A stretch of 64,000 bases of DNA, from positions 122,343 through 186,342 of IMG/VR virus record IMGVR_UViG_3300020173_000943; one strand, 5' to 3'. Positions 32,387 through 62,806 of this stretch are shown piece after piece (the first letter of the stretch is position 1; the number at the start of each line of letters is the position of its first letter). The translations under genes were made by a program, and so were the position numbers. The stretch is from a virus. Below the pieces are notes generated by a model. The model was not told where the DNA came from. It did no database searches and worked only from the letters and a program-made list of their open reading frames with translations.

Positions 32387-32394
32387 AGTAAATA
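32387..32394 (+). promoter_or_regulatory. Late promoter fused to the gp17 start (AGTAAATA-N5-ATG)
   Basis: AGTAAATA, then ATAGT, then ATG at 32400. The predicted +1 coincides with the A of ATG. No Shine-Dalgarno is present. Confidence 0.65.
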
Positions 32395-32399
32395 ATAGT

Positions 32400-33989
32400 A
32401 TGGCAACAAAGAGTTTAGATGGTGTCTTAACAAAAAAGGCACATACCAGAGATACATATACTGAGGCGCAGATTGAAGACCTACGCAGATGCATGGATCC
32501 AAAAGATGGATACTTGTACTTTGCTAAGAAGTTTGCATTCATTCAGCACCCTGTAAAAGGTAAATTATTATTTGATCCGTTTGCATATCAAGAACGGTTA
32601 CTACAGAGTTATCACGACTTCCGTTTTAATATTAATATGTTACCAAGACAAACTGGTAAAACTACTACTGCCGCAATTTACTTGTGTTGGTATGCTATGT
32701 TCCATCCAGATCAAACTATTCTAATTGCCGCACACAAATACACAGGCGCACAGGAAATTATGCAACGTATTAGATACGTGTACGAAATGTGTGCTGATCA
32801 TATTAGAGCAGGAGTAACAAACTACAACAAAGGTAGTATGGAATTTGAAAACGGTTCACGTATTGTAAGTGCTACTACAACAGGAAACACAGGACGTGGT
32901 ATGTCCATATCATTACTATACTGTGACGAGTTTGCATTTGTTAATCCTAATATTGCAGAAGAATTTTGGACATCAATATCACCTACACTAGCAACAGGTG
33001 GTAGAGCTATTATTACAAGTACACCTAACTCAGACGAAGATACGTTTGCTATTATTTGGAAAGAGTCTGCAGATAAGTTTGACGAACACGGTAACGAATC
33101 AGATATTGGTAAGAATGGCTTTCATGGATTTACATGTAGTTGGGACGAACATCCTGACAGAGATGAAGAATGGAGGAAGAATGAAATTGGTCGTATTGGT
33201 GAAGAAAAGTTTCGCCGTGAGTATGGTTGCGAATTTTTAATCTATGATGAAACACTTATTAATAGTATTAAGTTAGCATCAATGGAAGGCAAAGATCCAA
33301 TACTTAACATGGGCCAAACACGTTGGTATAAAAAACCAACAGGGGACAATAGTTACGTTGTTGCACTTGATCCTAGTATGGGTACAGGTGGAGACTTTGC
33401 CGCAATACAAGTATTTGAAGTACCAAGTTATAAGCAAGTAGCAGAGTGGAGACACAATGAAACTGCTATACCAGGACAAATTAGAGTTTTAAAAGATATA
33501 TGTGATTACATTAAAGAATGTTGTAATAACAACGGATCAAATATATATTGGAGTGTAGAGAACAATAGTATTGGAGAAGGTGCATTAATTGTTATTAGAG
33601 ATCTTGGAGAAGAGAATATACCAGGGCTACTTACAAGTGAGCCTATGCGTAAAGGACATGTACGCAAGTTCCGTAAAGGATTTAACACAACACACAGTAC
33701 AAAAATTAGTGCTTGTAGTCGTTTAAAGACTATGATTGAGAACGATAAACTAGAAGTAAACAGTAAAGTATTACTATCAGAGCTTAAAGGATTTGTAGCA
33801 AGTGGTAGTAGTTATAAAGCAAAACCCGGAGAAACGGACGATTTAGTTAGTGCAACACTACTAAGTATGCGTATAATTGCAGTATTAAAAGACTGGGATC
33901 CAAGAGTGTACGAATCGTTTAATCAAGCAGAAGCGGCCGAAGATTACGAACCGCCCATGCCTATATTCGTTTCGACTAATATGAGATAA
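32400..33989 (+). CDS. 17: gp17-like large terminase (ATPase-nuclease)
   Basis: 529 residues. The ATPase domain has Walker A PRQTGKTT (82-89) and Walker B LLYCDEFAF (~172-180), followed by coupling motif TSTPN. The C-terminal RNase H-like nuclease has ALDPSMGTGGDFAA (~322), VENNSIGEGAL and TDDLVSATLLSM supplying acidic residues. The enzyme powers DNA packaging and cuts concatemers. T4 gp17 is 610 residues, so the N-terminal lead is shorter here. The gene is isolated by a terminator upstream, and its promoter is positioned to give a leaderless mRNA. Confidence 0.95.
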   Translation: MATKSLDGVLTKKAHTRDTYTEAQIEDLRRCMDPKDGYLYFAKKFAFIQHPVKGKLLFDPFAYQERLLQSYHDFRFNINMLPRQTGKTTTAAIYLCWYAMFHPDQTILIAAHKYTGAQEIMQRIRYVYEMCADHIRAGVTNYNKGSMEFENGSRIVSATTTGNTGRGMSISLLYCDEFAFVNPNIAEEFWTSISPTLATGGRAIITSTPNSDEDTFAIIWKESADKFDEHGNESDIGKNGFHGFTCSWDEHPDRDEEWRKNEIGRIGEEKFRREYGCEFLIYDETLINSIKLASMEGKDPILNMGQTRWYKKPTGDNSYVVALDPSMGTGGDFAAIQVFEVPSYKQVAEWRHNETAIPGQIRVLKDICDYIKECCNNNGSNIYWSVENNSIGEGALIVIRDLGEENIPGLLTSEPMRKGHVRKFRKGFNTTHSTKISACSRLKTMIENDKLEVNSKVLLSELKGFVASGSSYKAKPGETDDLVSATLLSMRIIAVLKDWDPRVYESFNQAEAAEDYEPPMPIFVSTNMR

Positions 33990-33992
33990 ATA
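33985..33992 (+). promoter_or_regulatory. Late promoter fused to the next start (GATAAATA-N5-ATG)
   Basis: GATAAATA overlaps the gp17 stop, then TTAAC, then ATG 33998. The geometry is the same as at gp17, with no Shine-Dalgarno. Confidence 0.65.
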
Positions 33993-33997
33993 TTAAC

Positions 33998-35830
33998 ATG
34001 AGCAACTTAGAACCAGTGTCAGAAAAACTATTCGCTAAAATTAGAGGCAGATTTCCATCTGTAACAATTGGTGATGAAATGGGTACAGTAACAGACGAGC
34101 CTAAATTAGCAAAGTATTTTGACTTTGACTATAAAGAAGGCAATAATGTACTTGGAAAAGTTAGTATTACACTAGATGAAAAATCAGGCATTACTGTATT
34201 ATATAATCAAGACTTTATGGCTGAAGCTGGAGAAGCTGAAAAAAACAATTGGTATAACTTTTTAAAAGAAATTAGAATTTTTTCTAAAAAACATATGCTA
34301 AACTTTGATACAAGAGATATTACTAAAAGTAATCTTGATAAACGAGATTACGCACACTTAACAAAAACTGCCGGAGAAACACAAATGAGTGAGTCAAACA
34401 TGTACGGTACGAGTAGAACAAGTTTCGAAAATATCGATACTGCTCGCTTAGTACTTAAACACACCAAACCAGTAAACTTAGAAGTTCCTGGATCAAGAAC
34501 ACAAAATGTACACAGTATGTATATTGAAAGTGAAGCTGGCGAAAGATTTAAATATCCGTTCAGACATTTAAATGGTGCAAGAGCAATGGCAAGACATGTT
34601 GCCGAAGGCGGAAATCAATACGACGAGTTTGGTAAACATATTGTTGAGATGTCAACAGAATTAAACAAACTACGCAAGTTTAAAACTTACATGAACCGTT
34701 CAAGCGTAATGGCAGAAGGCTTAAAAGGTTATATGGAAGCCGTAGATGTAAGACTAGAAAATATTAAAACAGAAGTAATGAAACTACAACGTAGTGCGTA
34801 TTACAAAGAAGCATTTGAAAACTTTACTCCAGTAGTAAATGAAAATGTTCCAGAAGACGTTGCAGAAAATTGGATTGACCAATTAACTATTAGATCTTTT
34901 AACGAAGAATTAAAAGATGTATTTCCATATGTATACAGGTTAGTAAGTGAAGTAACAACGGCAAAAGAAGTATCGCCAGAAGACTTTGTTACAGAAACTG
35001 AAGTAGAGGCAGAAGTAGAAGTTTCAGAAGTACAAACTCCAGAAATGGAATTTGAAAGGGCGTTAGATTCAATCGTAGGAGAGGAAGACAATGCATTAAT
35101 TGACGGTGACGAAGAAGCACAAGCGGCCGCGGTTAAACAAATTAATGGCTTAATGGCTCAACATTTTCCTGCCGGAATAAACGGCACGAATGCAATCGAA
35201 AGCATGAAGGGCATTATAGATGACCCAATGCTACTAGACATGTTCAAAAAAGTTGGACAAAAAGATGCAGATACATGTGTCCGTCCATTAGTAATGAAAT
35301 ACTTAAAAGGAAAAAATCCAAGTATATTAACAAAAATTGATACAGGTGATCTTGAAACAGAATCACAGTATACACCAACTAAAGACAAAGATGACTACGA
35401 TGCTAAACAAAAAGCATTACAAGATTTACAAATAGATCCGGAGACATCAAAAGATCCAGAACTTAAAAAAGAACTAATGAAGCGTAAAGCATCATTAGAA
35501 AAAGATGCTGACAAATATGAAGATGACGATACTATGGATGTCAAAATCAATAGTAAAGGTCAAATGATGAAAGCTGATACTCCGGACGACATGGACGGAG
35601 AAGAACAAGATACAAGAACAGCAGGTGAGAAGTTAGAAGAGCTAGTTAAAAGTTATTATGACTACACAACTAACAACTTTCCAAAAGGCGAGCAGGCAGT
35701 AGTAACTGCATGTGAAAAAGAATTTGGTGAAGAAAGCGTACCAGTAGCTGAGAAGATGATTGCAAGATTAGTGCAAGGAAAAGATGGTGAGATGGAAAGA
35801 ATCAAATCACTAGCAGGCATTAATAACTAA
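33998..35830 (+). CDS. Large conserved phage protein of unknown function, acidic C-terminus
   Basis: 610 residues. The N-terminal ~300 residues look folded: YFDFDYKEGNNVLGKVSITLDEKSGITVLYN, then WYNFLKEIRIFSKKHMLNFDTRDITKSNLDKRDYAHL and YIESEAGERFKYPFRHLNGARAMARHVAEGG. From ~340 on it is acidic and Lys/Glu-rich (SPEDFVTETEVEAEVEVSEVQ; DKDDYDAKQKALQDLQ), probably disordered, with a helical tail. I believe it belongs to a family conserved beside terminase in marine T4-like phages, but its role is not known to me. Late promoter control argues for a virion or internal-head protein. Confidence 0.6.
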   Translation: MSNLEPVSEKLFAKIRGRFPSVTIGDEMGTVTDEPKLAKYFDFDYKEGNNVLGKVSITLDEKSGITVLYNQDFMAEAGEAEKNNWYNFLKEIRIFSKKHMLNFDTRDITKSNLDKRDYAHLTKTAGETQMSESNMYGTSRTSFENIDTARLVLKHTKPVNLEVPGSRTQNVHSMYIESEAGERFKYPFRHLNGARAMARHVAEGGNQYDEFGKHIVEMSTELNKLRKFKTYMNRSSVMAEGLKGYMEAVDVRLENIKTEVMKLQRSAYYKEAFENFTPVVNENVPEDVAENWIDQLTIRSFNEELKDVFPYVYRLVSEVTTAKEVSPEDFVTETEVEAEVEVSEVQTPEMEFERALDSIVGEEDNALIDGDEEAQAAAVKQINGLMAQHFPAGINGTNAIESMKGIIDDPMLLDMFKKVGQKDADTCVRPLVMKYLKGKNPSILTKIDTGDLETESQYTPTKDKDDYDAKQKALQDLQIDPETSKDPELKKELMKRKASLEKDADKYEDDDTMDVKINSKGQMMKADTPDDMDGEEQDTRTAGEKLEELVKSYYDYTTNNFPKGEQAVVTACEKEFGEESVPVAEKMIARLVQGKDGEMERIKSLAGINN

Positions 35831-35856
35831 GAATCACTTTTTTGGCAACCTAGTGG

Positions 35857-35885
35857 TTGACTTTACTAAGTAACTGTAGTAGTAT
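35857..35885 (+). promoter_or_regulatory. Sigma70-type promoter for gp32 (TTGACT-N17-TAGTAT)
   Basis: TTGACT at 35857-35862 and TAGTAT at 35880-35885 with a 17-base spacer, 80 bases before the gp32 start. The predicted leader is long (~75 bases) and structured, in contrast to the short or absent leaders elsewhere. Confidence 0.7.
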
Positions 35886-35890
35886 ATAAC

Positions 35891-35939
35891 ATGTGCTACT
35901 ACAAACAGGCACAGCGGAATGTTCCGCATTAAAGCACAT
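35891..35939 (+). promoter_or_regulatory. Structured leader of gp32 mRNA (possible autoregulatory element)
   Basis: ATGTGCT (35891-35897) can pair with AGCACAT (35933-35939), enclosing a second perfect stem GCGGAA (35914-35919) with TTCCGC (35922-35927). A Shine-Dalgarno (AGGAGG) follows before ATG 35967. T4 gp32 represses its own translation by binding a folded leader and the unstructured region after it. The position here is similar, but function is inferred only. Confidence 0.5.
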
Positions 35940-35966
35940 AGGCTTAACATATAGGAGGCAATAACT

Positions 35967-36932
35967 ATGGCAACATTAGCAGAGATCAGAGCTAAACTTA
36001 AAGAACAAGAGTCACGCACAGGTGGTTCTAATAACAACAGCGGCGGCGATAACGCAATTTACCCATTTTGGAATTTGAAGGAAGGACAGACTGCAACAGT
36101 TCGTTTCTTACCTGATGGTGACGAAAATAATACATTTTTCTGGCAAGAACGTTTGATGATCAAACTTCCATTTGCTGGAATTAAAGGCGAGACAGACTCT
36201 CGTCCAGTACAGGTACAAGTACCATGTATGGAAATGTATGGGGAAACTTGTCCAGTACTTTCAGAAGTACGTGGCTGGTTTAAAGATCCAAAGTTAGAGG
36301 ATATGGGTCGTAAGTATTGGAAAAAGCGTTCATACGTATTCCAAGGCTTCGTAACTGATAATCCACTTTCAGAGGATACAACACCTGAAAACCCAATCAG
36401 ACGTTTCATTATTGGTCCACAAATCTTCCAAATTATTAAGGGAGCATTAATGGATCCAGATATGAACGAACTACCTACAGACTACACAGCAGGTGTAGAC
36501 TTTAGAATCGCTAAAACATCCAAAGGTGGATATGCTGATTACTCAACATCAAACTGGGCTCGTAGAGAGCGTCCGTTAGATGAAGCTGAGTATAAGGCTA
36601 TCGAAGACCACGGCTTGTTTAACATGACAGACTACTTGCCTAAGAAACCTGAAGCAGTAGCAGTTGAAGTTATCAAGAAAATGTTTGAAGCATCAGTAGA
36701 TGGTGAAGCATACGACATGGAAGCATTTGGTCAATACTTTAGACCAGCAGGCGTAAGAGCGGCAACTGGTGATCCAGTTAAAGCAACTACACCAACTCCA
36801 GCGGCGGCACCAGCAGTAGCACCAGCAGAGGCTCCAGTAGCTGATGCAGTAGCACCTACGGCAACTGAAGCGGCAGGCGATGGCAACAAAGCAGAAGACA
36901 TCCTAGCGATGATCAGAAGCCGCCAAAGCTAG
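35967..36932 (+). CDS. 32: gp32-like single-stranded DNA-binding protein
   Basis: 321 residues, close to T4's 301. It has an N-terminal basic cooperativity segment (MATLAEIRAKLKEQESR), then the OB-fold core with YPFWNLKEGQTATVRFLPDGDENNTFFW, LPFAGIKGE, VPCMEMYGETCPV and KYWKKRSYVFQGFV. Next come GPQIFQIIKGALMDPDMNELPTDY and a C-terminal Pro/Ala linker ending in an acidic/basic tail (AEDILAMIRSRQS). In T4 the zinc ligands are one His and three Cys; here only two Cys are in the equivalent region, so zinc binding is doubtful. It coats ssDNA in replication and recombination. It is preceded by a long structured leader and followed by UvsX. Confidence 0.93.
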   Translation: MATLAEIRAKLKEQESRTGGSNNNSGGDNAIYPFWNLKEGQTATVRFLPDGDENNTFFWQERLMIKLPFAGIKGETDSRPVQVQVPCMEMYGETCPVLSEVRGWFKDPKLEDMGRKYWKKRSYVFQGFVTDNPLSEDTTPENPIRRFIIGPQIFQIIKGALMDPDMNELPTDYTAGVDFRIAKTSKGGYADYSTSNWARRERPLDEAEYKAIEDHGLFNMTDYLPKKPEAVAVEVIKKMFEASVDGEAYDMEAFGQYFRPAGVRAATGDPVKATTPTPAAAPAVAPAEAPVADAVAPTATEAAGDGNKAEDILAMIRSRQS

Positions 36933-36945
36933 TTTAATACTGAGT

Positions 36946-38836: not shown

Positions 38837-39421
38837 ATGAATTATCAATTACCAGGGGAAAGAAAAGCGATTGAGAAGTGGGACACACTTCCAGGCGATA
38901 TCAACTTTGTATTACGAGAAGGTGATGAAGTTGGTGATGATGGCGGCTGTGCATTAGGTGGTGCATGGGTTAAGAAAACTAGCCAAGAACTTTTTGGAAA
39001 TAAAAAAGTTGTTATCTTTGGATTACCAGGAGCGTTTACGCCAACCTGTAGTTCAGAACAACTACCAGCATACGAAAAAATGTACGAACAATTTAAAGCA
39101 GAAGGTGTCGATGAAGTTTATTGTGTAAGCGTTAACGATGCATTTGTAATGAATGCTTGGGCAAAAGAATTAGGTTGTACTAAAGTTAAATTACTAGCAG
39201 ATGGTAATGCAGACTTTACACATGCTATTGGTATGCTTTGTAATAAAAGAGATAAAGGCTTTGCAAATAGATCATGGAGATATGCTATGTATGTTGAGAA
39301 CATGATTGTTAGCGAAAGTTTTATTGAAGAAGGCTATAACAACGAAGGAACAGATAATGATCCTTACGAAATGTCAACACCTGAAAATGTAAACCAATAT
39401 ATACAAACTTTAAATCGTTAA
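38837..39421 (+). CDS. Peroxiredoxin (Prx5/AhpE-like redoxin fold)
   Basis: 194 residues. KKVVIFGLPGAFTPTCSSEQLPAYEKMYEQF places the peroxidatic Cys at ~71 in the P-x-x-x-TPTCS motif of Prx5-type peroxiredoxins. YCVSVNDAFVMNAWAKELG and KLLADGNADFTHAIGM follow in canonical order. Cys at ~115 and ~123 might resolve the disulfide, or the enzyme may be 1-Cys. It would reduce H2O2 or organic peroxides with a host thiol donor. The first ~35 residues are an extra lead. A redox gene between recombination and glycan genes is unusual and probably protects infected cells. Confidence 0.85.
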   Translation: MNYQLPGERKAIEKWDTLPGDINFVLREGDEVGDDGGCALGGAWVKKTSQELFGNKKVVIFGLPGAFTPTCSSEQLPAYEKMYEQFKAEGVDEVYCVSVNDAFVMNAWAKELGCTKVKLLADGNADFTHAIGMLCNKRDKGFANRSWRYAMYVENMIVSESFIEEGYNNEGTDNDPYEMSTPENVNQYIQTLNR

Positions 39422-39423
39422 AG

Positions 39424-39431
39424 TTTAAATA
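39424..39431 (+). promoter_or_regulatory. Late promoter fused to start (TTTAAATA-N5-ATG)
   Basis: TTTAAATA, then CTAGT, then ATG 39437. The 19-base stretch AAGTTTAAATACTAGTATG recurs exactly at 62332-62350, again ending in a start codon. Confidence 0.65.
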
Positions 39432-39436
39432 CTAGT

Positions 39437-40201
39437 ATGAGACACGTACTAGTAACAGGTGGCTTTGATCCACTACATTCAGGACACATTAACTATTTTA
39501 AGGCCGCAAAACAATTAGGTGATAAACTAATTGTTGGATTAAATTCAGATGAATGGCTGACTCGAAAAAAGGGTCGGCCATTTATGCCTTTTAAAGAACG
39601 TCTTGCTATCATTAAAGAACTAGCTATTGTAGATAAAGTTATCAGTTTTGATGACAGCGATGATAGTGCATGTGGTGCAATATTTCTTACTATGTCAACT
39701 ACCACAGGCAAAATTATATTTGCTAACGGTGGCGATAGAACAAACACTACAACTCCTGAGTATGCTACATACGGTGATCATCCGAGTGTAGAATTTGCAT
39801 TTGGAATTGGCGGCGAAAACAAAGCTAACAGTAGTAGTTGGATACTAGACGAGTGGAAAACACAAAAGACACAACGTGACTGGGGCTACTGGCGTGTACT
39901 TGATGACAAACCAGAAAAAGGTTACAAAGTAAAAGAGCTTGTAATTTATCCAGGGAAAGCACTAAGTAATCAAAAACATTTTAAACGTAGTGAACAATGG
40001 AATATATTAGAAGGCGAAGTTAAAATGGTAACTGAATGGGACGGCCGCACTGAGATTGCTTACCTAACGCCATCGAGTAGACCATATGAAATTAATAAAG
40101 AAGTTTGGCATTTACCAAGTAACCCAGGAACTGAAAATGCACATATATTAGAAATACAATGCGGCGAACAATGTGTTGAAGAAGATATAGAAAGGCGCTA
40201 A
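39437..40201 (+). CDS. Nucleotidyltransferase-cupin fusion (sugar-nucleotide metabolism)
   Basis: 254 residues with two domains. Residues 1-~145 are a cytidylyltransferase-like domain: VTGGFDPLHSGHINYFKAAKQLGDKLIVGLNSDEW contains the HxGH active site (HSGH), and the region resembles the HldE adenylyltransferase half. Residues ~146-254 are a cupin like the C-terminus of type II mannose-6-phosphate isomerase/GDP-mannose pyrophosphorylase: RDWGYWRVLDD, KVKELVIYPGKALSNQKHFKRSEQWNILEGEV, then EVWHLPSNPG. The fusion could couple sugar-phosphate isomerisation with activation. It opens the glycan island, and the next gene starts at its last base. The substrate is unknown. Confidence 0.75.
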   Translation: MRHVLVTGGFDPLHSGHINYFKAAKQLGDKLIVGLNSDEWLTRKKGRPFMPFKERLAIIKELAIVDKVISFDDSDDSACGAIFLTMSTTTGKIIFANGGDRTNTTTPEYATYGDHPSVEFAFGIGGENKANSSSWILDEWKTQKTQRDWGYWRVLDDKPEKGYKVKELVIYPGKALSNQKHFKRSEQWNILEGEVKMVTEWDGRTEIAYLTPSSRPYEINKEVWHLPSNPGTENAHILEIQCGEQCVEEDIERR

Positions 40202-44296: not shown

Positions 44297-45137
44297 TTTA
44301 TTTACAGACTATGGCGCACTTAATAGTAAACCGGTGTTTGACTCTTTTGCAACTAGTTTGCACAATAGTGGCCATACCGTTAGTTTTAATGAGTGGGATT
44401 GCGATGTTGCTGTTATATGGAGTGTGCTTTGGTTTGGTCGAATGGCTGGAAACCAAAAAGTTTGGGAACACTTCCAAGCAATAAACAAACCTGTAATAGC
44501 ATTAGAAGTTGGTGGAATAAATAGAGGCGTAACGTGGAAAGTAGGTCTCAATGGAATCAATCGTGATGCTTATTTTGGGGATAGTGGTAATAATAATGCT
44601 CGTAGCAATGCTCTTGGGCTATTACTAAAACCTTGGCGCACCGACGGCGAGTACATTTTAATATGCGGACAGCATGATAAGAGTTTACAATGGCAAGGTA
44701 TGCCAAGCATGAGTAATTGGCTAATGCAAACTATTAGTGAAGTACGTAAACACACAGACCGTCCTATTATATTTCGACCACACCCAAGACGTCCATTACC
44801 GCATATAGAAAAAGAATTTAAAAACGTATACAGACAAGATCCACAACATGTCAAAGACACCTATGATGATTTTGATATGGGATTTAATAATGTATGGGCT
44901 ACTATCAGTTATTCGAGCAACCCGGGTATACATAGTATCATCGAGGGTGTGCCTGCTTTTGTTAGTACCCACAGTCTTGCTTATCCTGTAGGCAATGACA
45001 TTGATTTCTTACATGATATTGAACAGCCCGTAATGCCAGATAGAACACAATGGCTAAACGATTACGCTCACACTGAATGGACTTTGGATGAAATAGCTCA
45101 AGGGTTACCATTAAAGAACTTGACTTCTGAACTATAA
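44286..45137 (+). CDS. GT-B-like capsule-type glycosyltransferase (paralogue 3 of 3)
   Basis: 283 residues. ILICGQHDKSLQWQGM, RPIIFRPHPRRPLPH and WATISYSSNPGIHSIIEGVPAFVS align with paralogue 2. The N-terminal domain is shorter (YGALNSKPVFDSFATSLHNSGH). It is the last gene of the island; its start overlaps the GT-A gene by 11 bases. The C-terminal segment DRTQWLNDYAHTEWTLDEIAQG corresponds to paralogue 2's 'DREQWVRKIAQCHWSFADLRSG', which confirms the relationship over the full C-terminal half. Confidence 0.6.
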   Translation: MKFSLFTDYGALNSKPVFDSFATSLHNSGHTVSFNEWDCDVAVIWSVLWFGRMAGNQKVWEHFQAINKPVIALEVGGINRGVTWKVGLNGINRDAYFGDSGNNNARSNALGLLLKPWRTDGEYILICGQHDKSLQWQGMPSMSNWLMQTISEVRKHTDRPIIFRPHPRRPLPHIEKEFKNVYRQDPQHVKDTYDDFDMGFNNVWATISYSSNPGIHSIIEGVPAFVSTHSLAYPVGNDIDFLHDIEQPVMPDRTQWLNDYAHTEWTLDEIAQGLPLKNLTSEL

Positions 45138-45148
45138 TCAAGTATAAT
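45120..45148 (+). promoter_or_regulatory. Sigma70-type promoter fused to start (TTGACT-N17-TATAAT-N6-ATG)
   Basis: TTGACT at 45120-45125 and TATAAT at 45143-45148, spacer 17, then ATACAC and ATG 45155. The predicted +1 is at or within one base of the A of ATG. No Shine-Dalgarno. The promoter overlaps the end of the glycan island. Confidence 0.85.
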
Positions 45149-45154
45149 ATACAC

Positions 45155-46459
45155 ATGCTTAGAAAAGAACCAATCGACATTGCTGACCTTACCGTTGAAG
45201 ACTGCTTAGAACTAGTTGCTGGCATCAGTAACTTTAAGTTTAGTCGTAACAAAGAGTTAGCAGACTTACACTCATTTACGTTGCATGACGACAACCATAA
45301 GATTATGTTTAGTATTGCTAAACAATGTTTTAGAGGTACTGCACTCACGCCTAAGCAACACGAGCTTGTTAAAAAGCTATTAGTAGAGTACTACGCACCA
45401 CAGTTTACAAAGCATAACATTGAACTTAAGAACCATTTAGATAATTTAAGAACTCCGTTAAGAGAGATAGACAGTTCGCATTGGGTTAAAATACAAGAAG
45501 TTACATATGATAATGTAAAACAGCAAATGCTTGTTATTAGATTTCCGTTTAATAAAAAAGTTATTAATAGATTAGAAGAATTAAAAAACGGTAATAACAA
45601 AGATTATTTCTATGAAAAACACAAACACTTCTTTCCGTTAACTGAAAAATATGTTTGGAAGGTTGTAAATATTGCTAATAAGTTTCCTGCTAAGTTTGAT
45701 ATTTCTAACGAAGTTCAAGAAATATACAATGAGCTTAAAGTTATGGATACTAATGTTCACAAATTCCTTCCTGGCATTAAAGATTATAAATTTATTAATT
45801 ACAACGAACTTGGCATTACTGAATGTACAAAAGATCTAGGACAACCAAATGTTAACAACCTCTATCAATATTTTGACCGTAAAGGTCTTTATGGTCTCGA
45901 ATACTTTGATGACGTTGATGTCACAGAAAGTTTTAGAATTAATAACTGTGATACACTAGCAGTTAAGATTGCTAATAGAAGTAATCTTCAAATTTGTGTT
46001 AACAGTGATACATGGAACAGAGATCAACTTTGTTCTGCATTACAACAACTAGATAGGTTTCCGTTATTGGTAGTGTTAGATACACAAACTTGTTTAGATA
46101 ATATAATTGAATTACACAATTCATTTGTAAATTTTATTCCAAAAGAACAAATGAGTGTTATGTTTAGATTGGACAACAAAGAATTAGATTATGCTAAGGA
46201 ATTTAACCAATTCGTCCATGATAAGGGATTAAATAATTATGTTGACAATAAAACTAAAGTAGTGTATATTAGTAGTAATAAAGTTCCTAAGCCGTTATTT
46301 AAAAGTAATTGGAAACCAATAACATCGTTGTCTATAACAAGGCAACCTTTGAACCTTATTAATGAATGGATATGCGGAATTGATCTAACAATGACATATG
46401 ATGTTGGATCAATAGTAGCACCTTATAATAGATGGCAAGTTAAAGTAGAGAATATATGA
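45155..46459 (+). CDS. Unknown protein co-transcribed with UvsW
   Basis: 434 residues, no recognised domain. The N-terminus has LHDDNHKIMFSIAKQCFRGTALTPKQHELVKKLLVEYYAPQF, a pattern I associate with phage replication/recombination proteins (LT-x-x-Q-x-x-L-x-x-K-L). The middle (FNKKVINRLEELKNG, then the YVWKVVNIANKFPAKFDIS region) and end (LLVVLDTQTCLDNIIELHNSF; VYISSNKVPKPLF) look like alpha/beta domains without a Walker A. The last 4 bases overlap the UvsW start. It could be a helicase partner or a degenerate helicase-like protein. It is driven by a strong early-type promoter with a leaderless start. Confidence 0.6.
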   Translation: MLRKEPIDIADLTVEDCLELVAGISNFKFSRNKELADLHSFTLHDDNHKIMFSIAKQCFRGTALTPKQHELVKKLLVEYYAPQFTKHNIELKNHLDNLRTPLREIDSSHWVKIQEVTYDNVKQQMLVIRFPFNKKVINRLEELKNGNNKDYFYEKHKHFFPLTEKYVWKVVNIANKFPAKFDISNEVQEIYNELKVMDTNVHKFLPGIKDYKFINYNELGITECTKDLGQPNVNNLYQYFDRKGLYGLEYFDDVDVTESFRINNCDTLAVKIANRSNLQICVNSDTWNRDQLCSALQQLDRFPLLVVLDTQTCLDNIIELHNSFVNFIPKEQMSVMFRLDNKELDYAKEFNQFVHDKGLNNYVDNKTKVVYISSNKVPKPLFKSNWKPITSLSITRQPLNLINEWICGIDLTMTYDVGSIVAPYNRWQVKVENI

Positions 46460-51760: not shown

Positions 51761-52018
51761 ATGCTTCCAGGTGAAGCACTGATATATGAGCGTAGCGATG
51801 GTATTGTCTACGCTCGTTATCGTGACCCTCCACACAATAAGATTCCTCGTTGGATTATTGGTGGTGATTCTGACGCAATCAAAAAGCATGAAGGACGCCT
51901 GGACTTTGAAGAATATTTGGATATGGTTGATTGCGCCAAAACAAATTATACACTCAAAAAACAACTTGACAAAGCACTTATAATATGGTATACTATACGT
52001 AATGAAACAGAAAAATAA
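51761..52018 (+). CDS. Conserved small phage protein of unknown function
   Basis: 85 residues from ATG 51761 (MLPGEALIYERSDG). An in-frame TTG 9 bases earlier is possible. LPGEALIYERSDGIVYARYRDPPHNKIPRWIIGG is a distinctive block that I recognise from marine T4-like phages, though the function is unknown to me. It contains the promoter of the next gene in its last codons and overlaps it by 17 bases. No membrane segment or catalytic motif. Confidence 0.6.
   Translation: MLPGEALIYERSDGIVYARYRDPPHNKIPRWIIGGDSDAIKKHEGRLDFEEYLDMVDCAKTNYTLKKQLDKALIIWYTIRNETEK
51966..51994 (+). promoter_or_regulatory. Sigma70-type promoter fused to start (TTGACA-N17-TATACT-N7-ATG)
   Basis: TTGACA at 51966-51971 and TATACT at 51989-51994, spacer 17, then 7 bases and ATG 52002. 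The whole element lies inside the upstream coding sequence. No Shine-Dalgarno lies before the start. Confidence 0.8.
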
Positions 52019-54812: not shown

Positions 54813-54820
54813 AATAAATA
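54813..54820 (+). promoter_or_regulatory. Late promoter fused to start (AATAAATA-N5-ATG)
   Basis: AATAAATA, then TGTAT, then ATG 54826. An alternative ATG at 54820 would overlap the promoter itself, so 54826 is preferred as the translation start. No Shine-Dalgarno. Confidence 0.6.
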
Positions 54821-54825
54821 TGTAT

Positions 54826-55617
54826 ATGTCCCAATTAACATACAGATATTTAGCAAGTAATAGAGTTGGCCTAGTTGCGGATTTGGCTAATAACATAACG
54901 GAGTATAGACCAGTGTACCAGAGAACCCTACAAATATATCGAGGTATTGATAACACAATATCTTTTGAGATTAAAAATTCAGATCAAAAACCTGTAAGCA
55001 TACTTAATACTTACACACCTAAGCTAATGGCATTCGATGAAAACAATGTATTAATTCTAGAGAAGACTGGTACCATCCTAGAAACAAGTACACCGTCAAA
55101 GAAAGGTCAGTTCTCTATACTAATTACTGCTAATGATTTGTTAGATGTTAAACAACAGTATGTAAGTTATAATGTATTCTTAACTAAGGACAGCGACAAT
55201 ACTAACGTAGTAACATATGCTGATAGTCACTTTGGTGTTAAAGGCACTATAATGATTAGCTCAGAAGCATTTCCAGGACCAAGTGCAACGTACAGTATTG
55301 ATACGTTTACTGAAACTAATCCAAGCACAGGGAATTATGTTAGTGAAGCAATTACTGCTGAAGCAACACGTAATGGTAATTCAGCACTACACACAGCGGC
55401 AGTTTACTCAACAAACTTTACAGGTGATATAGAAATACAAGGCACGTTAGATAACCAAGTTACTAATGGAACACCGTGGGGTACTATTGCAACCGTAAGT
55501 TTAGCCAACGAAACACAACCAAAATATGTAAACTTTAACGGAGTTTACTCACACTTAAGAATAGCATATACTACTCCGGGATCGGGTACATTGGATAAAA
55601 TTCTAGTAAGAAACTAG
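54826..55617 (+). CDS. Virion structural protein (tail/fibre attachment domain)
   Basis: 263 residues from ATG 54826. The N-terminal half (TYRYLASNRVGLVADLANNITEYRPVYQRTLQIYRGIDNTISFEIKNSDQKPVSIL) is a beta-sandwich with the 'IYRG-x-D-x-x-x-F-x-IKN' pattern of phage baseplate/BppU-like N-domains. The C-terminal half (HTAAVYSTNFTGDIEIQGTLDN...YVNFNGVYSHLRIAYTTPGSGTLDKILVRN) looks like a discoidin/jelly-roll binding module. It is probably a tail-associated protein. A late promoter fused to the start supports this. Confidence 0.65.
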   Translation: MSQLTYRYLASNRVGLVADLANNITEYRPVYQRTLQIYRGIDNTISFEIKNSDQKPVSILNTYTPKLMAFDENNVLILEKTGTILETSTPSKKGQFSILITANDLLDVKQQYVSYNVFLTKDSDNTNVVTYADSHFGVKGTIMISSEAFPGPSATYSIDTFTETNPSTGNYVSEAITAEATRNGNSALHTAAVYSTNFTGDIEIQGTLDNQVTNGTPWGTIATVSLANETQPKYVNFNGVYSHLRIAYTTPGSGTLDKILVRN

Positions 55618-55646
55618 TTGACTTTTATCTAGACTTATAGTATAAT
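55618..55646 (+). promoter_or_regulatory. Sigma70-type promoter fused to start (TTGACT-N17-TATAAT-N6-ATG)
   Basis: TTGACT at 55618-55623 and TATAAT at 55641-55646, spacer 17, then AATACT and ATG 55653. The geometry is identical to the 45155 gene: predicted +1 at ATG, no Shine-Dalgarno. Confidence 0.85.
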
Positions 55647-55652
55647 AATACT

Positions 55653-56636
55653 ATGAGCGGAATCGTACACGAAACTATATTAGCACACTTGCCTGCGAAG
55701 CGTAAAACTACACCAAGTGGTTGGACCAGCTTCAATGCTCCTTGTTGCGTACACAATGGTACAGGTGCTGATACTAGACAACGTGGTGGACTAATCCAAA
55801 ATGCAGAAGAAGGTGTAAGCTATCATTGTTTCAATTGTGGCTACACAGCAAGTTGGAATAAAGGTAGACGTATTACCTACAAGATGAAAAAGTTCTTGCA
55901 ATGGATTAACGTTAGCGATGATGCTATTAATAAACTATCCCTAGCAGTATTACAATTTGAATCCGACGAAGCTCTACAAGCAATAACACGTATGCCAGAG
56001 TTTAAGACAGTAGAACTGCCAGAAGGTGCAAAGCCAATAAGCGAATATACTGATACTACTGACGCTCATTTAATTAAAGTATTAGAGTATATGAAGTCAA
56101 GACAGTTGTACTTAGAAGACTACAACTTTCATTGGACACCTAAGATTGGATACAGAGATAGATTAATAGTTCCGTTTTATTTTAACAATCAAATAGTAGG
56201 ATACACAGCAAGGAAAGTTACTGATGGTGCTCCAAAATATATGAGTGAGCAACAGCCTGGTTATGTGTTTAATATGGATCAACAAGACTATCGTAGACAG
56301 TTTGTTATTGTAGTTGAAGGACCTATGGATGCTATTGGCATAGAAGGACTAGCACTACTAGGTAGCGAAGTCAAAGATCAACAGCACCTACTCATCAAGT
56401 CGTTAAATAAGCAAGTAATACTAGTTCCAGATAGAGATGAAGCAGGACATAAACTAATTGATCAAGCAATAGAATTTGGTTGGAGTGTTAGTATGCCGGA
56501 CTGGGATCAAGACATTAATGATGTGAACGATGCAATTACAAAGTATGGAAGAATATATACACTACATCAAATTGTAACACATTCAGAAAGCTCATCATTA
56601 AAGATTAAACTTAGGAGTAAAAAATGGTTTGGTTAA
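55653..56636 (+). CDS. 61: gp61-like DNA primase
   Basis: 327 residues. The zinc-binding domain has Cys31/Cys32/His34 and CFNCG (Cys59, Cys62). YMKSRQLYLEDY and GYRDRLIVPFYFNNQIVGYTARKV follow. The TOPRIM domain has VVEGPMDAIGI (~220-230) and VPDRDEAGHK (~258-267). It makes RNA primers with gp41 (59023). T4 gp61 is 342 residues. Leaderless start from a perfect sigma70-type promoter. Confidence 0.9.
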   Translation: MSGIVHETILAHLPAKRKTTPSGWTSFNAPCCVHNGTGADTRQRGGLIQNAEEGVSYHCFNCGYTASWNKGRRITYKMKKFLQWINVSDDAINKLSLAVLQFESDEALQAITRMPEFKTVELPEGAKPISEYTDTTDAHLIKVLEYMKSRQLYLEDYNFHWTPKIGYRDRLIVPFYFNNQIVGYTARKVTDGAPKYMSEQQPGYVFNMDQQDYRRQFVIVVEGPMDAIGIEGLALLGSEVKDQQHLLIKSLNKQVILVPDRDEAGHKLIDQAIEFGWSVSMPDWDQDINDVNDAITKYGRIYTLHQIVTHSESSSLKIKLRSKKWFG

Positions 56637-57996: not shown

Positions 57997-59007
57997 ATGA
58001 TTATTTGGGGTATGGTTGGTAACAGTCACGATGCTAGTTTAGCAGTCTTTGAGAAAGGACCGTTTGACGATCTACAATGTCTGTGGGCTAGTCTTGCAAA
58101 AGACTTTAGTGACGTACCAGGAGATCCTAAACACAGTGACGAACAAATTGCAATGGCACGTAAACTATACGGCGAGCCAGACAAAGTTGTTTGGTACGAA
58201 CTACCATACCTTAAATCATTTAGACAATGGCGAGCAGGACAAGGCACAGTACGTGAAGTGCTTATGGAAAACAATATCACAAACTATCTAAAACAATGGG
58301 ACATCAAATGCCCTGTTAGGTTTGCTAAACATCATACTAGTCATGCCGCATATGGATTCTACACACAAGCAGAACCGAATGCAGTTGTAATGTGTTTAGA
58401 CTCTATTGGTGAGTTTGAAACATTTACTATTTGGCATAGTGATAAGAATCGTAAACTTAAAAAAGTTTACAGTCAAGGATATCCACACAGCATTGGATTG
58501 TTCTATAGTGCAATGACACAACGTATGGGCCTTGTAGCAAACAGAGATGAGTATCTAGTATCACAAATGGGTAATGACATTGCTACGTCAGAAAATTTAG
58601 AATTGATCAATCACATGGTTGATACATTCATTGATGGACCATTAGATGGTAGTGTACCAGGTGTCAAGTTTAAACACAATCTACACCGTGGTGCTAGTTG
58701 GTACAAGTCAGACCTAACCACTGAATATGATATGAAAAGACTTGCTAATGCAACACAGTTTGTATTTGAATTGATTATTAAAAGTCAAAGTACTTGGTGT
58801 AAAAATAATCTTCAAAGTCGAAATTTAATTCTCACAGGCGGATGTGCATTAAATAGAGATGCAGTAAATAGAATCAAACAAGATTGGAATTCAATTTACG
58901 TACCGCCAAACCCAGGTGATCCTGGAAGTTGTATTGGTGCAGTACTTGCATTGGAGAAACGAACGATTGACTTTGATCCAACAATGTGGTATAATAGTAA
59001 AGCATAA
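57997..59007 (+). CDS. Short carbamoyltransferase-like protein (Kae1-like domain only)
   Basis: 336 residues. It matches the N-terminal (Kae1-like) domain of NodU/CmcH enzymes: MVGNSHDASLAVFEKG, then FAKHHTSHAAYGFYTQ with the HxxxH metal site, VMCLDSIGEFETF, and LTGGCALNRDAVNRI, ending in NPGDPGSCIGAVLAL. The C-terminal YrdC-like domain (the NGPRALGNR block of the 3524 gene) is absent, so it may not make carbamoyl-AMP itself. It could work with that full-length enzyme or act as a Kae1/TsaD-type variant. The gene starts 1 base after ClpP, and a promoter for gp41 lies in its last codons. Confidence 0.75.
   Translation: MIIWGMVGNSHDASLAVFEKGPFDDLQCLWASLAKDFSDVPGDPKHSDEQIAMARKLYGEPDKVVWYELPYLKSFRQWRAGQGTVREVLMENNITNYLKQWDIKCPVRFAKHHTSHAAYGFYTQAEPNAVVMCLDSIGEFETFTIWHSDKNRKLKKVYSQGYPHSIGLFYSAMTQRMGLVANRDEYLVSQMGNDIATSENLELINHMVDTFIDGPLDGSVPGVKFKHNLHRGASWYKSDLTTEYDMKRLANATQFVFELIIKSQSTWCKNNLQSRNLILTGGCALNRDAVNRIKQDWNSIYVPPNPGDPGSCIGAVLALEKRTIDFDPTMWYNSKA
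58967..58995 (+). promoter_or_regulatory. Sigma70-type promoter inside the carbamoyltransferase gene (TTGACT-N17-TATAAT)
   Basis: TTGACT at 58967-58972 and TATAAT at 58990-58995, spacer 17, within the last codons of the upstream gene. It drives gp41, whose start at 59023 has a short leader and AAGGAA site. Confidence 0.8.
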
Positions 59008-59022
59008 CAAAGGAATAACTGC

Positions 59023-60462
59023 GTGAAACAAAATACTGATTACGGATTTGATATCCAAAAAACATATTTAGAAATTATGTTAAGCGATGCACAAACATTT
59101 GTGCGTTGTCAGGGTATCTTTGATCCAGAAAGTTTTGACCGTAATCTACAAGCAGGTGCTACATTTATTAGAGACTTTGTTGCAGAACACAACACACTTC
59201 CTACAGAACAAATTGTTAATAGTGCATGTCCAGGTACTAATTTAAAAATTCCAACAGGACTTAATGAACAACACTATGATTGGTTATTGAATGACTTTGA
59301 AACATTTAGTAGGCACAAAGCATTAGAGAAAGCAATTTTAACAAGTGCTGACTTGATTGAAAAAGGTGAGTATGGTCAGTGCGAGAGTCTAGTCAAAGAA
59401 GCAGTACAGATTGGATTACAAAAAGACTTAGGTATTGACTACTTTAAAGATCCTAAAGGTAGACTGCTAGGACTAAAAGACAACAACGGACAAGTAAGCA
59501 CAGGCTGGGAAGCACTAGACAAGAAACTGTTTGGTGGCTTTAACAAAGGCGAGCTTAATATATTTGCAGGTGGATCAGGTGCAGGTAAGAGTTTGTTCTT
59601 GGCTAACCTAGGAGTTAACTGGGCAACACAAGGTATGAATGTTGTGTATCTAAGTTTAGAACTTAGTGAAGCACTAGTAAGTATGCGTATTGACAGTATG
59701 ATGACTGAGATACCTAGCAGAGAAATATTTAAAGATCTTGACGGTGTTGAAATGAAAGTCAAGATGATGGGCAAGAAATCAGGTGCATTACAAGTCAAGT
59801 ATATGCCAAGTGGTAAGACAACCAATGATGTAAGAAGTTATATCAAAGAGTATGAAGTTAAAACAGGACGCAAAGTAGACGTACTATTGATTGACTATTT
59901 GGATTTGCTTATGCCAATAGGACAAAAGATTAGTGCAGAGAACTTGTATGTTAAAGACAAATATGTAAGTGAAGAACTACGTAACTTGGCAATGGAACTG
60001 GGTTGTATTTTTGTTACAGCATCGCAGTTGAATAGATCAAGTGTAGAAGAAATTGAATTTGATCACAGTCACATCAGTGGTGGACTTAGTAAGATTCAAA
60101 CTGCTGATAACGTGATTGGTATCTTTACAAGTAGAGCTATGCGTGAACGTGGTAGATATCAAATACAGCTAATGAAGACACGTTCATCAAGTGGTGTAGG
60201 TGCAAAGATTGATCTAGAGTTTGACATTGATTGTTTGCGTATTAGAAACTTAGATGAGGATGATGACGGCAGTGGTTATGGTGCGGCTCCGCAGAGTAGT
60301 ATTATGGACAGTCTAAAACGTAACACTAATGTTACCACAGACAAAGAACCAGACACACCAAAAGAACCCAACGAAGGTGCTCCAATAGGCAAAGTAAGAG
60401 CACAAACAGACAGTACTAAACTTAGAAGCTTCCTTGCTAATCTAGGTGATGACGATGAGTAG
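59023..60462 (+). CDS. 41: gp41-like replicative helicase (DnaB family)
   Basis: 479 residues, GTG start with AAGGAATAACT upstream. Walker A is GGSGAGKS (~184-191), Walker B is DVLLIDYLDLL (~285-295), and FVTASQLNRSSVEE (~330) is the RecA-fold sensor. SAGGLSK-like HISGGLSKIQTADNVIG with the R-finger region completes the motor. The N-terminal ~160 residues are the linker/primase-interaction domain. The C-terminal tail is acidic and disordered (DEDDDGSG...). It unwinds the fork with gp61 primase (55653). Confidence 0.93.
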   Translation: MKQNTDYGFDIQKTYLEIMLSDAQTFVRCQGIFDPESFDRNLQAGATFIRDFVAEHNTLPTEQIVNSACPGTNLKIPTGLNEQHYDWLLNDFETFSRHKALEKAILTSADLIEKGEYGQCESLVKEAVQIGLQKDLGIDYFKDPKGRLLGLKDNNGQVSTGWEALDKKLFGGFNKGELNIFAGGSGAGKSLFLANLGVNWATQGMNVVYLSLELSEALVSMRIDSMMTEIPSREIFKDLDGVEMKVKMMGKKSGALQVKYMPSGKTTNDVRSYIKEYEVKTGRKVDVLLIDYLDLLMPIGQKISAENLYVKDKYVSEELRNLAMELGCIFVTASQLNRSSVEEIEFDHSHISGGLSKIQTADNVIGIFTSRAMRERGRYQIQLMKTRSSSGVGAKIDLEFDIDCLRIRNLDEDDDGSGYGAAPQSSIMDSLKRNTNVTTDKEPDTPKEPNEGAPIGKVRAQTDSTKLRSFLANLGDDDE

Positions 60463-61219
60463 AAAGATTTATTTCTTTGGCGACAGCTTTACAGTAGACT
60501 ACGAAACAGATTGGACTTGGACAAGACAACTTGCAGAGAAACTGCATGTGGACGGATTAGTCAATCACAGTATGGTAGGTACCAGCAATGACTGGATACT
60601 AATGAAGCTACGTGAATGTATTCCAACACTAACTGCCAATGATGTAGTTGTAGTAGTTACTACAAGTTTATATCGTCATTGGTTCATCAAAGACTTTCCA
60701 GAACTATCAAACTATATGATCGGCAACTGGTCACAGATGGCCGCAAAAGAACACATCGATCAAGATGTAATTGATAGTGTACAAGGTTATGCTGTAAATC
60801 TACAACGCAACGACATTGATCAGTTTAGATTTGAAACACAGGTAGCATGGTTAAAGGGTGTACAAACAACTGTAGGTTGTAGTCTGTTGTTGATACCGGG
60901 TTTTGAAATGCCCATTGACTTTAAAGGATTGGTTAGAGTACACGGTGATATGACCAATACACTAAGCAACAATGAATTCGTTACACTAGAACAAAGAGAC
61001 TTATGGTACCGACGAGGCATTGACACTCGCTACAATCATATGATTCGTGACAACCATGACTCGCTATCAGACAAGTGTGTCAACAGCATACTCACAGGAA
61101 ATGATTTGGATCTAACTGACGGATTCAAAATACATCAGCTACACAGCGATGACAAAGACACACACAAACAAATTGGACCTAAACTAGTAGAACTAAACAA
61201 ACAGCTATACGGGAGTTAA
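60455..61219 (+). CDS. SGNH-hydrolase-like protein
   Basis: 254 residues from ATG 60455 (MSRKIYFFGDSFT); an in-frame ATG at 60446 is less likely. FFGDSFTVDYETDW is block I with the nucleophile Ser, GTSNDWI fits block II, and VVVVTTSLYRHWF block III. RDNHDSLSDKCVNSIL could be the distal Asp-x-x-His region. It probably acts as an esterase/acyltransferase on a glycan or lipid, with the same logic as the gene at 2704. It overlaps the helicase end by 8 bases, an odd place for such a gene. Confidence 0.6.
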   Translation: MSRKIYFFGDSFTVDYETDWTWTRQLAEKLHVDGLVNHSMVGTSNDWILMKLRECIPTLTANDVVVVVTTSLYRHWFIKDFPELSNYMIGNWSQMAAKEHIDQDVIDSVQGYAVNLQRNDIDQFRFETQVAWLKGVQTTVGCSLLLIPGFEMPIDFKGLVRVHGDMTNTLSNNEFVTLEQRDLWYRRGIDTRYNHMIRDNHDSLSDKCVNSILTGNDLDLTDGFKIHQLHSDDKDTHKQIGPKLVELNKQLYGS

Positions 61220-61220
61220 T

Positions 61221-61565
61221 ATGCAAGTACATATCAAAGACATCGGTGGTGAAATTGTAAAAGAAGACGATCGCTACATAGTCAAAGACAATACAAGTCT
61301 ACGTAACCTAGCATTGAGCAGTACGTTTCTTACAGCAGGTAAGAGTACTACAGGACATGCACACGTAGGACAAGAAGAAGTATACTACTTTGTAGAAGGT
61401 GTAGGTGAAATGGAATTGATTTCAACCAACGGAGAACGCACACTAGAGACTGTTGGTCCTGGAAGCGTGGTACTAATTCAAGATGGTTACTTTCATAGAG
61501 TACACAACACAGGCGACTATGGCTTGTACTTTGTGTGCGTATTTGACGGCACACGAAAGATCTAA
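61221..61565 (+). CDS. Small cupin-domain protein
   Basis: 114 residues, one cupin: TTGHAHVGQEEVYYFVEGVGEMELI (motif 1 with H-x-H...E) and GPGSVVLIQDGYFHRVHNTGDYGLYFVCVF (motif 2). It is close to the sugar-phosphate-isomerase or ring-binding single-domain cupins. It lies directly after the SGNH-like gene (1-base gap). Likely part of small-molecule or glycan handling, but the substrate is unknown. Confidence 0.75.
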   Translation: MQVHIKDIGGEIVKEDDRYIVKDNTSLRNLALSSTFLTAGKSTTGHAHVGQEEVYYFVEGVGEMELISTNGERTLETVGPGSVVLIQDGYFHRVHNTGDYGLYFVCVFDGTRKI

Positions 61566-61570
61566 TTTAA

Positions 61571-62281
61571 ATGTATTCAATGATCCCTATGACTGCGGAT
61601 GAAATCCGTGACCTACTAGAACAAACTACTTTGGATAATTTACAAATTGAATTAGAAAGTAGAATTGGTCCTAATCGCAAAGATCTAGAAAAGGGTCGCC
61701 CTTTTCAAATTGCAAAAGAAGCATGGGAGTATGCTCTTGCAGATGCACTAGAATGGAAAGGTGGTAAGTGGGTAGGTCATGGAAACAATCCTGAAGACGT
61801 TCGTGTACACGACCATGTGCATTATGATGTAAAAGGACTTAGTGGATCATGGACTGGAACCAGCAGTGAAGCAAGTATTAAACAAAGTTTAAAAACTGAA
61901 TTTCGAATTGATGAAAACTTTCAAAAAGAAAATAGTCAAGAACTTTGGAACAGTACTGTGGACCCGTGGATTAAAAAAGTGTTTGACAAAGACAACTATT
62001 ACATTAGTGTGTTTTGGCGGCACAATAAAGATTTAAATATTAGGTTGGTTATGTTTCGAATAGATGCAGGTACTATGCCCAACTACGATAGCACACAATG
62101 CTGTTTTAATCCTAGTGGAACCACAATGAATATTCTAAACATTGCAGATCCAACACATGCTAAAATTTATGTACTAAAAAGTAAAAAACGCATGGAACTA
62201 CGCATCAAGGGAAAATTCTTTAATGATGCTCATTGGTATGTGCCAGTATACGATTTTACCCAAACTCCCATTGTAGAGTAA
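61571..62281 (+). CDS. Unknown protein, possible nuclease-like DVK motif
   Basis: 236 residues; a start at 61580 is also possible (TTTAAATG-N6-ATG, a weak promoter-fused geometry). Residues ~75-90 read DVRVHDHVHYDVKGLSG. The order of Asp, His and D-V-K is reminiscent of restriction-like (PD-(D/E)XK) cores, but I cannot place the first acidic residue with confidence. The last third is beta-rich (ISVFWRHNKDLNIRLVMFRID; KIYVLKSKKRMELRIKGKFF). No RNA or membrane features. It lies beside the region where gene orientation switches. Function unknown. Confidence 0.5.
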   Translation: MYSMIPMTADEIRDLLEQTTLDNLQIELESRIGPNRKDLEKGRPFQIAKEAWEYALADALEWKGGKWVGHGNNPEDVRVHDHVHYDVKGLSGSWTGTSSEASIKQSLKTEFRIDENFQKENSQELWNSTVDPWIKKVFDKDNYYISVFWRHNKDLNIRLVMFRIDAGTMPNYDSTQCCFNPSGTTMNILNIADPTHAKIYVLKSKKRMELRIKGKFFNDAHWYVPVYDFTQTPIVE

Positions 62282-62334
62282 AAAAAAATTGATCAAAAAA
62301 AATTTCACAAGTACTTGGTGTTTTTGCCACGAAG

Positions 62335-62342
62335 TTTAAATA
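62335..62342 (+). promoter_or_regulatory. Late promoter fused to start (TTTAAATA-N5-ATG)
   Basis: TTTAAATA, then CTAGT, then ATG 62348. Identical over 19 bases (from 62332) to the element before 39437. An A-rich stretch (62281-62303) lies ~35 bases upstream. Confidence 0.65.
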
Positions 62343-62347
62343 CTAGT

Positions 62348-62806
62348 ATGCTTAGACTACAAGGACATGGATTCAAACACTATGGCAGTGAATGGCCTGA
62401 CATAGAACAAGAAGTTGAATGGCACTTTCAAGAAGCCACAAAGACCAACGGACATCCTGTACGCATTGAGTTTGTACATAGTGCTCTAACAGTTACAGCT
62501 AGTTTGGATCAGCTACAGTGGATAGACGAACTCAAAGAACACTACGGTGTAGTTGTAGAGCTGAGTCACACACAAGATCAAACACTTCCCCCAAACAGTC
62601 TAACACCAGACTATGACGTATACTTGGACAGGGTGATATTTTGGATAGCCAACAATCCTGAATGGCGTGATCATGCACAGGTCTACAAGGACATGCTCAA
62701 CAGTTTGGGAGATGCGCCATTGCCCACACAACTAATACCCAACCAGGACAAGCATCCAGAACTTGCACATTGGTTTGCATGTGCAGACAAAGCCGCGAAG
62801 CGGTAA
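62348..62806 (+). CDS. Unknown protein
   Basis: 152 residues from ATG 62348 (MLRLQGHGFKHYG); a longer in-frame start at 62315 would include the promoter. The sequence reads GSEWPDIEQEVEWHFQEATKTNGHPVRIEFVHSALTV, then DYDVYLDRVIFWIANNPEWRDHAQVYKDMLNSLGD, and a His/Trp/Pro-rich C-terminus. Helical content is high, with no motif that I recognise. It sits at the end of the plus-strand run before a ~250-base gap. Confidence 0.55.
   Translation: MLRLQGHGFKHYGSEWPDIEQEVEWHFQEATKTNGHPVRIEFVHSALTVTASLDQLQWIDELKEHYGVVVELSHTQDQTLPPNSLTPDYDVYLDRVIFWIANNPEWRDHAQVYKDMLNSLGDAPLPTQLIPNQDKHPELAHWFACADKAAKR

Follow-up and report, generated by a model that had tools for sequence, protein, structure and literature searches.

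T4-type late promoters set five nucleotides before the start codon predict leaderless mRNAs in aquatic phages

Promoters and start codons in the window

The window, meaning the whole stretch of DNA analysed here, is 64,000 nucleotides (nt) long and covers positions 122343-186342 of the 186,342-base IMG/VR virus record IMGVR_UViG_3300020173_000943 (the source record), which comes from a T4-type phage. In it, the late-promoter core TAAATA repeatedly lies exactly five nt (N5) before an ATG, so that the mRNA is predicted to begin at the start codon itself. The genes opening in this way include those for the terminase large subunit (closest among phage records to that of Pseudomonas phage sp. 30-2, at 53.6%), for virion structural proteins, and for a nucleotidyltransferase (Table 1). 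Across the source record and its relatives, TAAATA or TAAGTA precedes terminase, tail tube, baseplate wedge, and virion structural genes. The matches also include a family labelled NAD synthetase, and many of the genes match no family. No common function of the predicted leaderless genes was seen among the family matches, and no simple functional rule emerges.

Table 1. Promoters, start codons, and associated features (window coordinates unless a record is named)
Feature	Position	Strand	Remark
Variant late promoter TAAGTA, N5, ATG of 148-amino-acid protein (start 19944)	19942..19955	-	Absent from the earlier note
Late promoter TAAATA, N8, ATG of 385-amino-acid gene (start 22532)	22530..22546	-	Missed by the earlier note
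Late promoter TAAATA, N5, ATG of conserved 112-amino-acid protein (start 24291)	24289..24302	-	
Intrinsic terminator, 9-bp stem, 4-nt loop, then TTTTT	32359..32385	+	3 nt before terminase late promoter; read directly
Late promoter TAAATA, N5, ATG of terminase large subunit (gene 32400-33989)	32389..32402	+	Read directly
Late promoter TAAATA, N5, ATG of virion structural gene (33998-35830)	33987..34000	+	Promoter overlaps terminase stop codon
Late promoter TAAATA, N5, ATG of nucleotidyltransferase gene (39437-40201)	39426..39439	+	
Late promoter TAAATA, N5, ATG of virion structural gene (54826-55617)	54815..54828	+	
Late promoter TAAATA, N5, ATG of unknown gene (62348-62806)	62337..62350	+	
Sigma70-type TTGACT-N17-TATAAT, N6, ATG of 434-amino-acid protein of unknown function	45120..45157	+	Start 45155
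Sigma70-type TTGACA-N17-TATACT, N7, ATG of unknown gene	51966..52004	+	Start 52002
Sigma70-type TTGACT-N17-TATAAT, N6, ATG of DNA primase gene	55618..55655	+	Start 55653
Contrast: leadered late promoter TAAATA, N16 with GGAG, ATG	7134..7158	+	
Contrast: leadered late promoter, N17 with GGAG	22556..22581	+	Back to back with promoter at 22546(-)
Phage-encoded bS21, L290 (further loci: L342, L344, L345, L386, L387)	G010:C1:332212-332364		

An earlier note on this DNA had listed seven late-promoter starts, and six of them carry the exact TAAATA-N5-ATG layout: 24291(-), 32400, 33998, 39437, 54826, and 62348. The terminase start has no in-frame start upstream before a stop codon 15 nt away. At 33998, dozens of relatives with identities as low as 42% retain the spacing (mostly N5, with some N4, N6, or N7), PA5oct excepted, and at 39437 relatives 51-100% identical do so, L055 excepted. 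At 24291(-) it is N5 or N4 in 19 of the 19 distinct sequences listed. Taken together, these three genes hold N4 or N5, and in some cases N6 or N7, in nearly all relatives listed (42-100% identity). Three of the six sites are weaker: 24291(-) has an in-frame GTG upstream; 54826 has a second in-frame ATG at 54820, 6 nt upstream and overlapping the motif, and its orthologs show N4 (G005) and N8 (G010); and 62348 has in-frame TTG and GTG codons upstream and matches only the source record in the set searched.

The seventh site, 38837, was dropped, as the sequence there reads TAAAATACGAATATG and holds no TAAATA. Upstream of the same start, all seven orthologs listed have AGGA, and TAAATA occurs in L019 alone, at N4. 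The gene itself (38837-39421) is a phage member of the peroxiredoxin (Redoxin/AhpC-TSA) family and adjoins the nucleotidyltransferase gene, whose single product carries both a cytidylyltransferase-like and a mannose-6-phosphate isomerase C-terminal domain.

Two starts can be added to the list. The TAAGTA-N5 layout at 19944(-) recurs in the G002 ortholog, which is 79% identical. At 22532(-), where the window has N8, four of six orthologs have N5 (G005, G007, G008, and G010), and the other two, in G002 and G011, have N8. Between 22541 and 22561, divergent genes are served by two late promoters 9 base pairs (bp) apart, one leadered (+) and one N8 (-). In G005, G007, and G008, too, the orthologous start has an opposed TATTTA next to its TAAATA.

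Fixed spacing against chance and among phages

Spacing was measured as k, the number of nt between TAAATA and the first in-frame ATG of the next open reading frame (ORF), for every unmasked TAAATA. Genes were called crudely, as the longest non-overlapping ORFs, and some true sites are masked as a result, for example those at 22579 and 52002. Chance was estimated from 100 dinucleotide shuffles of the 60 nt upstream (266 candidate ATGs in the source record). The window's close group consists of the source record, G002, G005, G007, G010, and G011. Some records entered the counts in part: G005 (60 of 66 kilobases, kb), G008 (40 of 71 kb), G016 (200 of 202 kb), KVP40 (200 of 245 kb), XaC1 (240 of 349 kb), S-8S56 (160 of 176 kb), and immuto (160.0 of 160.4 kb).

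In the source record, 10 of the 38 promoters lie at exactly k=5, compared to a shuffle mean of 0.44 and maximum of 2. One each lies at k=6, 8, and 9, distances 0-4 and 10-15 are empty, and the rest fall at 16-43. Position k=5 therefore holds 10 of the 13 promoters within k=0-12 (binomial p 2e-9 against uniform). G010 (357 kb) has 8 promoters at k=4 and 18 at k=5 out of 78, G005 has 2 and 4 out of 15, and the k=5 counts are 6 of 20 in G002 and 5 of 28 in G011. Per record, 13-40% of close-group promoters sit at k=4-5. The layout is also found in HTVC008M, a cultured Pelagibacter phage (11 of 35 at k=5, all 11 ATGs being RefSeq coding-sequence starts), and in Mosig (6 of 33, shuffle maximum 2). 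Shuffle means at k=5 range from 0.28 to 0.83 for the source record, G010, HTVC008M, G015, Mosig, Melnitz, and G016. Across 14 related records, some of them near-duplicates, TAAATA-N5-ATG occurs 90 times against 18 for the backwards pattern; nine outgroup phages give 46 against 50. Across seven group records, 33 of the 47 starts at k=5 have no in-frame ATG, GTG, TTG, or CTG upstream. The control motifs TAATAA and TATAAA show no peak of this size, and the peaks of ATAAAT (one base off) and AAATAT (at k=4) arise because these words overlap TAAATA.

The fixed spacing between promoter and ATG is confirmed, and it extends beyond the window. The earlier note had found that it looked selected and not random, which the shuffles and the preservation of N5 in diverged relatives bear out. 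Random spacing in relatives, which by the note would have counted against this view, was not found: the spacing is fixed in close and more distant relatives, HTVC008M, and Mosig, and weaker in Melnitz. The HTVC008M genes at k=5 include those for the DNA end protector, head closure, baseplate tail tube cap, baseplate wedge subunit, and tail completion. The DNA end protector gene stands at k=5 in HTVC008M, Mosig, and Melnitz alike. A gp25-type wedge gene stands at k=5 or 4 in the source record, G010, and HTVC008M, and the wedge proteins of the first and last are only 27% identical.

The spacing can be followed most closely at the terminase start. The close loci are 80 from a longer IMG/VR list (78-100% identical), 59 of which were kept by counting identical upstream sequences once. 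The more distant loci come from a PA5oct-seeded search plus three loci in metagenome-assembled genomes (MAGs); 67 of 83 were kept in the same way, with L285, whose start is cut, excluded. Among the close loci, 46 have N5, 9 have N4, 3 have N7 or N8, and the motif is missing from 1; among the more distant ones, 41 have N5, 3 have N4, and 6 have N6-N8. The 5-nt spacers are of 39 different kinds, so the length is kept while the sequence changes. The motif is at the terminase start in none of nine reference phages. Among distinct loci, 44 of the 58 close ones and 14 of the 48 more distant ones have a hairpin and T-run ahead of the promoter (19 loci without the motif and 3 at contig edges being left out), and in 57 of the 58 loci with a hairpin the stem ends 7-9 nt before the motif.

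The layout is not a trait common to all T4-type phages or to phages of alphaproteobacterial hosts. There is no k=5 site in T4, KVP40, S-8S56, C48C1, or XaC1 (within the parts covered), no k=5 peak in PA5oct (2 of 70, shuffle mean 1.39) or immuto (1 of 31), and no TAARTA-N5-ATG at all in phiM12 and Cr30. Bacterial contigs were considered as a guide to the host and proved uninformative, the four loci falling in three MAGs of three phyla. In one MAG labelled Candidatus Neomarinimicrobiota, the same phage terminase region, 76% identical, is found on two contigs (L282 and L283), and its terminase start is leadered, with TAAGTA 19 nt before ATG.

A second set of starts follows sigma70-type promoters, and the three sites of this kind in the earlier note do have the 6-7 nt between -10 box and ATG that it gave. 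The -35 and -10 hexamers have the 16-18 bp spacing expected of sigma70 promoters at these sites and at some orthologs. The distance to ATG is N6 in G002 and N7 in G010 for the 45155 gene, and N6 in G010 and N7 in G005 for the primase. At 52002 the G002 ortholog has the same elements, and none are present in the stretches displayed for G005 and G010. Genome-wide, with cut-offs for sigma70 and Shine-Dalgarno (SD) scoring of the analyst's own choice, the two 350-kb relatives stand out: 9 such starts in G010 (shuffle mean 0.29, maximum 2) and 7 in G015 (mean 0.18, maximum 1). Of the two promoter classes that had been proposed, then, both exist, and the sigma70 class is numerically distinct only in these two records. 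The PA5oct primase ortholog has TATAAT directly followed by an in-frame GTG, with another GTG 6 nt on, possibly a remnant of a sigma70 leaderless start.

Predicted leaderless messages and rival explanations

In T4, TATAAATA spans positions -13 to -6 (part of PMC1524935), so that five further nt place the predicted +1 on the A of ATG, much where the earlier note had put it. The first T of TATAAATA is not conserved in these phages. The base before ATG is C or T at 45 of 46 k=5 starts, compared to 54 of 134 leadered starts, which fits the A as +1 because transcription prefers to start at a pyrimidine-purine step. Among leadered late starts, 108 of 134 have an SD-like word of at least 4 nt, as do 327 of 480 starts of other kinds, compared to 11 of the 46 at k=5. 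In the source record, 22 of 24 distinct starts with a promoter at least 13 nt away have an SD word.

A gp55-family late sigma gene is present in the source record (C1:79528-79839, E 4e-23), with homologs in G010, G007, G011, and PA5oct; a search of the partial G002 gave no match. The search for the gp45 clamp (PHROG 223) matched only T4 among seven records and missed PA5oct too. A T4-type late holoenzyme with a gp55-like sigma would recognise TAAATA or TAAGTA as its core element and start the RNA six bases after the TAAATA core, on the A of AUG. A second gene set would be read from sigma70-type promoters in which 6-7 nt separate the -10 box from ATG. The ribosome would then initiate at the 5'-terminal AUG without SD pairing. 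For other genes of the same genome, this late promoter would give leaders of roughly 8 nt upward, most of them containing an SD, and intermediate lengths are rare. It is very probable that many genes of these phages are expressed from leaderless mRNAs (or from mRNAs with leaders of at most 3 nt), and other genes of the same genomes from mRNAs with ordinary leaders. The sequence evidence thus supports the earlier note's interpretation, with "leaderless" still a prediction.

Several observations weigh against this reading. The signal is weak in G007, where k=5 holds 3 and k=4 holds 2 of 39 promoters, and in Melnitz the k=5 count, 3 of 35, goes no higher than the largest shuffle value of 3. G015 and G016 show a broader cluster at k=4-8 (34 of 103 and 13 of 45), with implied leaders of 0-3 nt. 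TAAATA also occurs at k=0-3, six times in HTVC008M (k=0-2), four in Mosig, and three in Melnitz, several beside SD words; at that distance it cannot serve as promoter for that start. Among the more distant terminase loci, 8 have the motif at least 18 nt away and 9 have none. In the sigma70 class, the counts of two in the source record (shuffle mean 0.17, maximum 3) and in HTVC008M (mean 0.26, maximum 2) do not exceed the shuffle maxima. The earlier claim that these starts have no SD tests the reading only in part: a 4-nt word is still present at the 11 k=5 starts mentioned above, and at 3 of the 10 in the source record, and the promoter itself, filling -11 to -6 and with it some of the SD window, forces part of the deficit.

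One rival is readthrough, in which translation would proceed from longer polycistronic mRNAs and the promoter close to ATG would be a compact, secondary start giving poorly translated RNA. T4-type genomes are extensively read through, several of the genes closely follow the preceding one, and the 33998 promoter overlaps the upstream stop codon. However, in 58 of 106 distinct loci the terminase promoter is immediately preceded by a terminator. In such loci the terminator, the promoter, and the ATG make up a single compact unit, which speaks against a need for readthrough. The rarity of SD words compared to leadered genes, although partly a matter of construction, also tells against it, and compactness alone cannot hold the spacing at 5 across diverged sequences. 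Readthrough as the full explanation is quite improbable. It is very improbable that transcription instead starts 1-3 bases upstream and leaves tiny leaders, as the k=6-8 cases in G015, G016, and some terminase loci might suggest; the mode at k=5, followed by k=4 in the close group, and the pyrimidine at -1 speak for the A. This rival differs little in mechanism from leaderless initiation because an SD could not fit in either case. Chance in AT-rich intergenic DNA (GC about 36%), where TAAATA and ATG are both frequent, has next to no likelihood and is refuted for the class by the shuffles, the backwards-pattern counts in relatives and outgroups, and the lack of a k=5 peak in the equally AT-rich T4 and XaC1, and it stands only for single weak sites such as 62348, which taken alone cannot be told from chance.

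Ribosomal protein bS21 and known systems

Phage-encoded bS21 is a lead, not a result, in asking how such messages might be favoured. It is present in all six leaderless-type records of 141-357 kb that were tested (G010, G015, G016, HTVC008M, Mosig, and Melnitz, the pattern in Melnitz itself being borderline); of 15 T4-type phages that lack the pattern, two (PA5oct and Phosso) encode it. The association has a Fisher p of 0.0005 with kinship ignored, with eight shorter records of the group excluded and with eight of the 15 pattern-free phages judged by pattern against backwards control only. One could consider a translation switch late in infection, in which bS21, as a loosely held 30S protein acting at initiation, would remodel ribosomes to prefer leaderless late phage mRNAs over SD-led host ones. 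Peptides of the HTVC008M bS21 were detected in ribosome preparations (PMC6375957, in part). Such a switch is nonetheless unlikely: Escherichia coli ribosomes that favour leaderless mRNA lack bS21 (PMC12186496, in part), and no bS21 match was found in the eight other group records (66-186 kb, the source record included). No match to a phage-encoded IF3 was found in seven records.

The significance of the spacing is that it predicts, to the single base, a leaderless gene class, including many virion genes, in aquatic phages, two of which (HTVC008M and Mosig) are in culture on SAR11. Start and late-promoter calling in these genomes would need to change. Late-promoter prediction was unsuccessful in pelagimyophages (PMC7029224, in part), a failure that the fusion of promoter and ATG may help to explain. 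The spacing also raises the question of why terminase and baseplate genes would be read without SD pairing and other late genes with it. Phage transcripts have been called "often leaderless", yet the leaders of AR9 are 26-491 nt long (part of PMC5312081). T4-type late promoters and leaderless mRNA are each known; no report of their fusion, or of leaderless late genes in T4-type phages, was found in the open-licence PubMed Central literature, subscription journals being outside the search.

The promoters resemble those of the T4 late system (gp55/gp33/gp45) in their TAAATA core, gp55-family sigma, and placement before virion genes, and the leadered members mostly have an SD in both (108 of 134 here, 27 of 33 in T4). 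They differ in spacing, as none of the 42 TAAATA promoters of T4 lies at k=4-8, compared to the 13-40% at k=4-5 in each close-group record. Leaderless phage mRNAs, beginning at the start codon, have reportedly been described for lambda cI and for the Thermus phages phiYS40 and P23-45, which are said to have other promoter types and to belong to other phage groups. A further likeness is to leaderless genes of bacteria, in which a -10-like signal lies some 12 bp ahead of the start (PMC3160421, in part). There too the element is spaced so that AUG would be +1, and the inference likewise came from position and shuffles. The search there was for sigma70-type boxes in cells, whereas here a phage-type late promoter would act in this way beside a sigma70 class.

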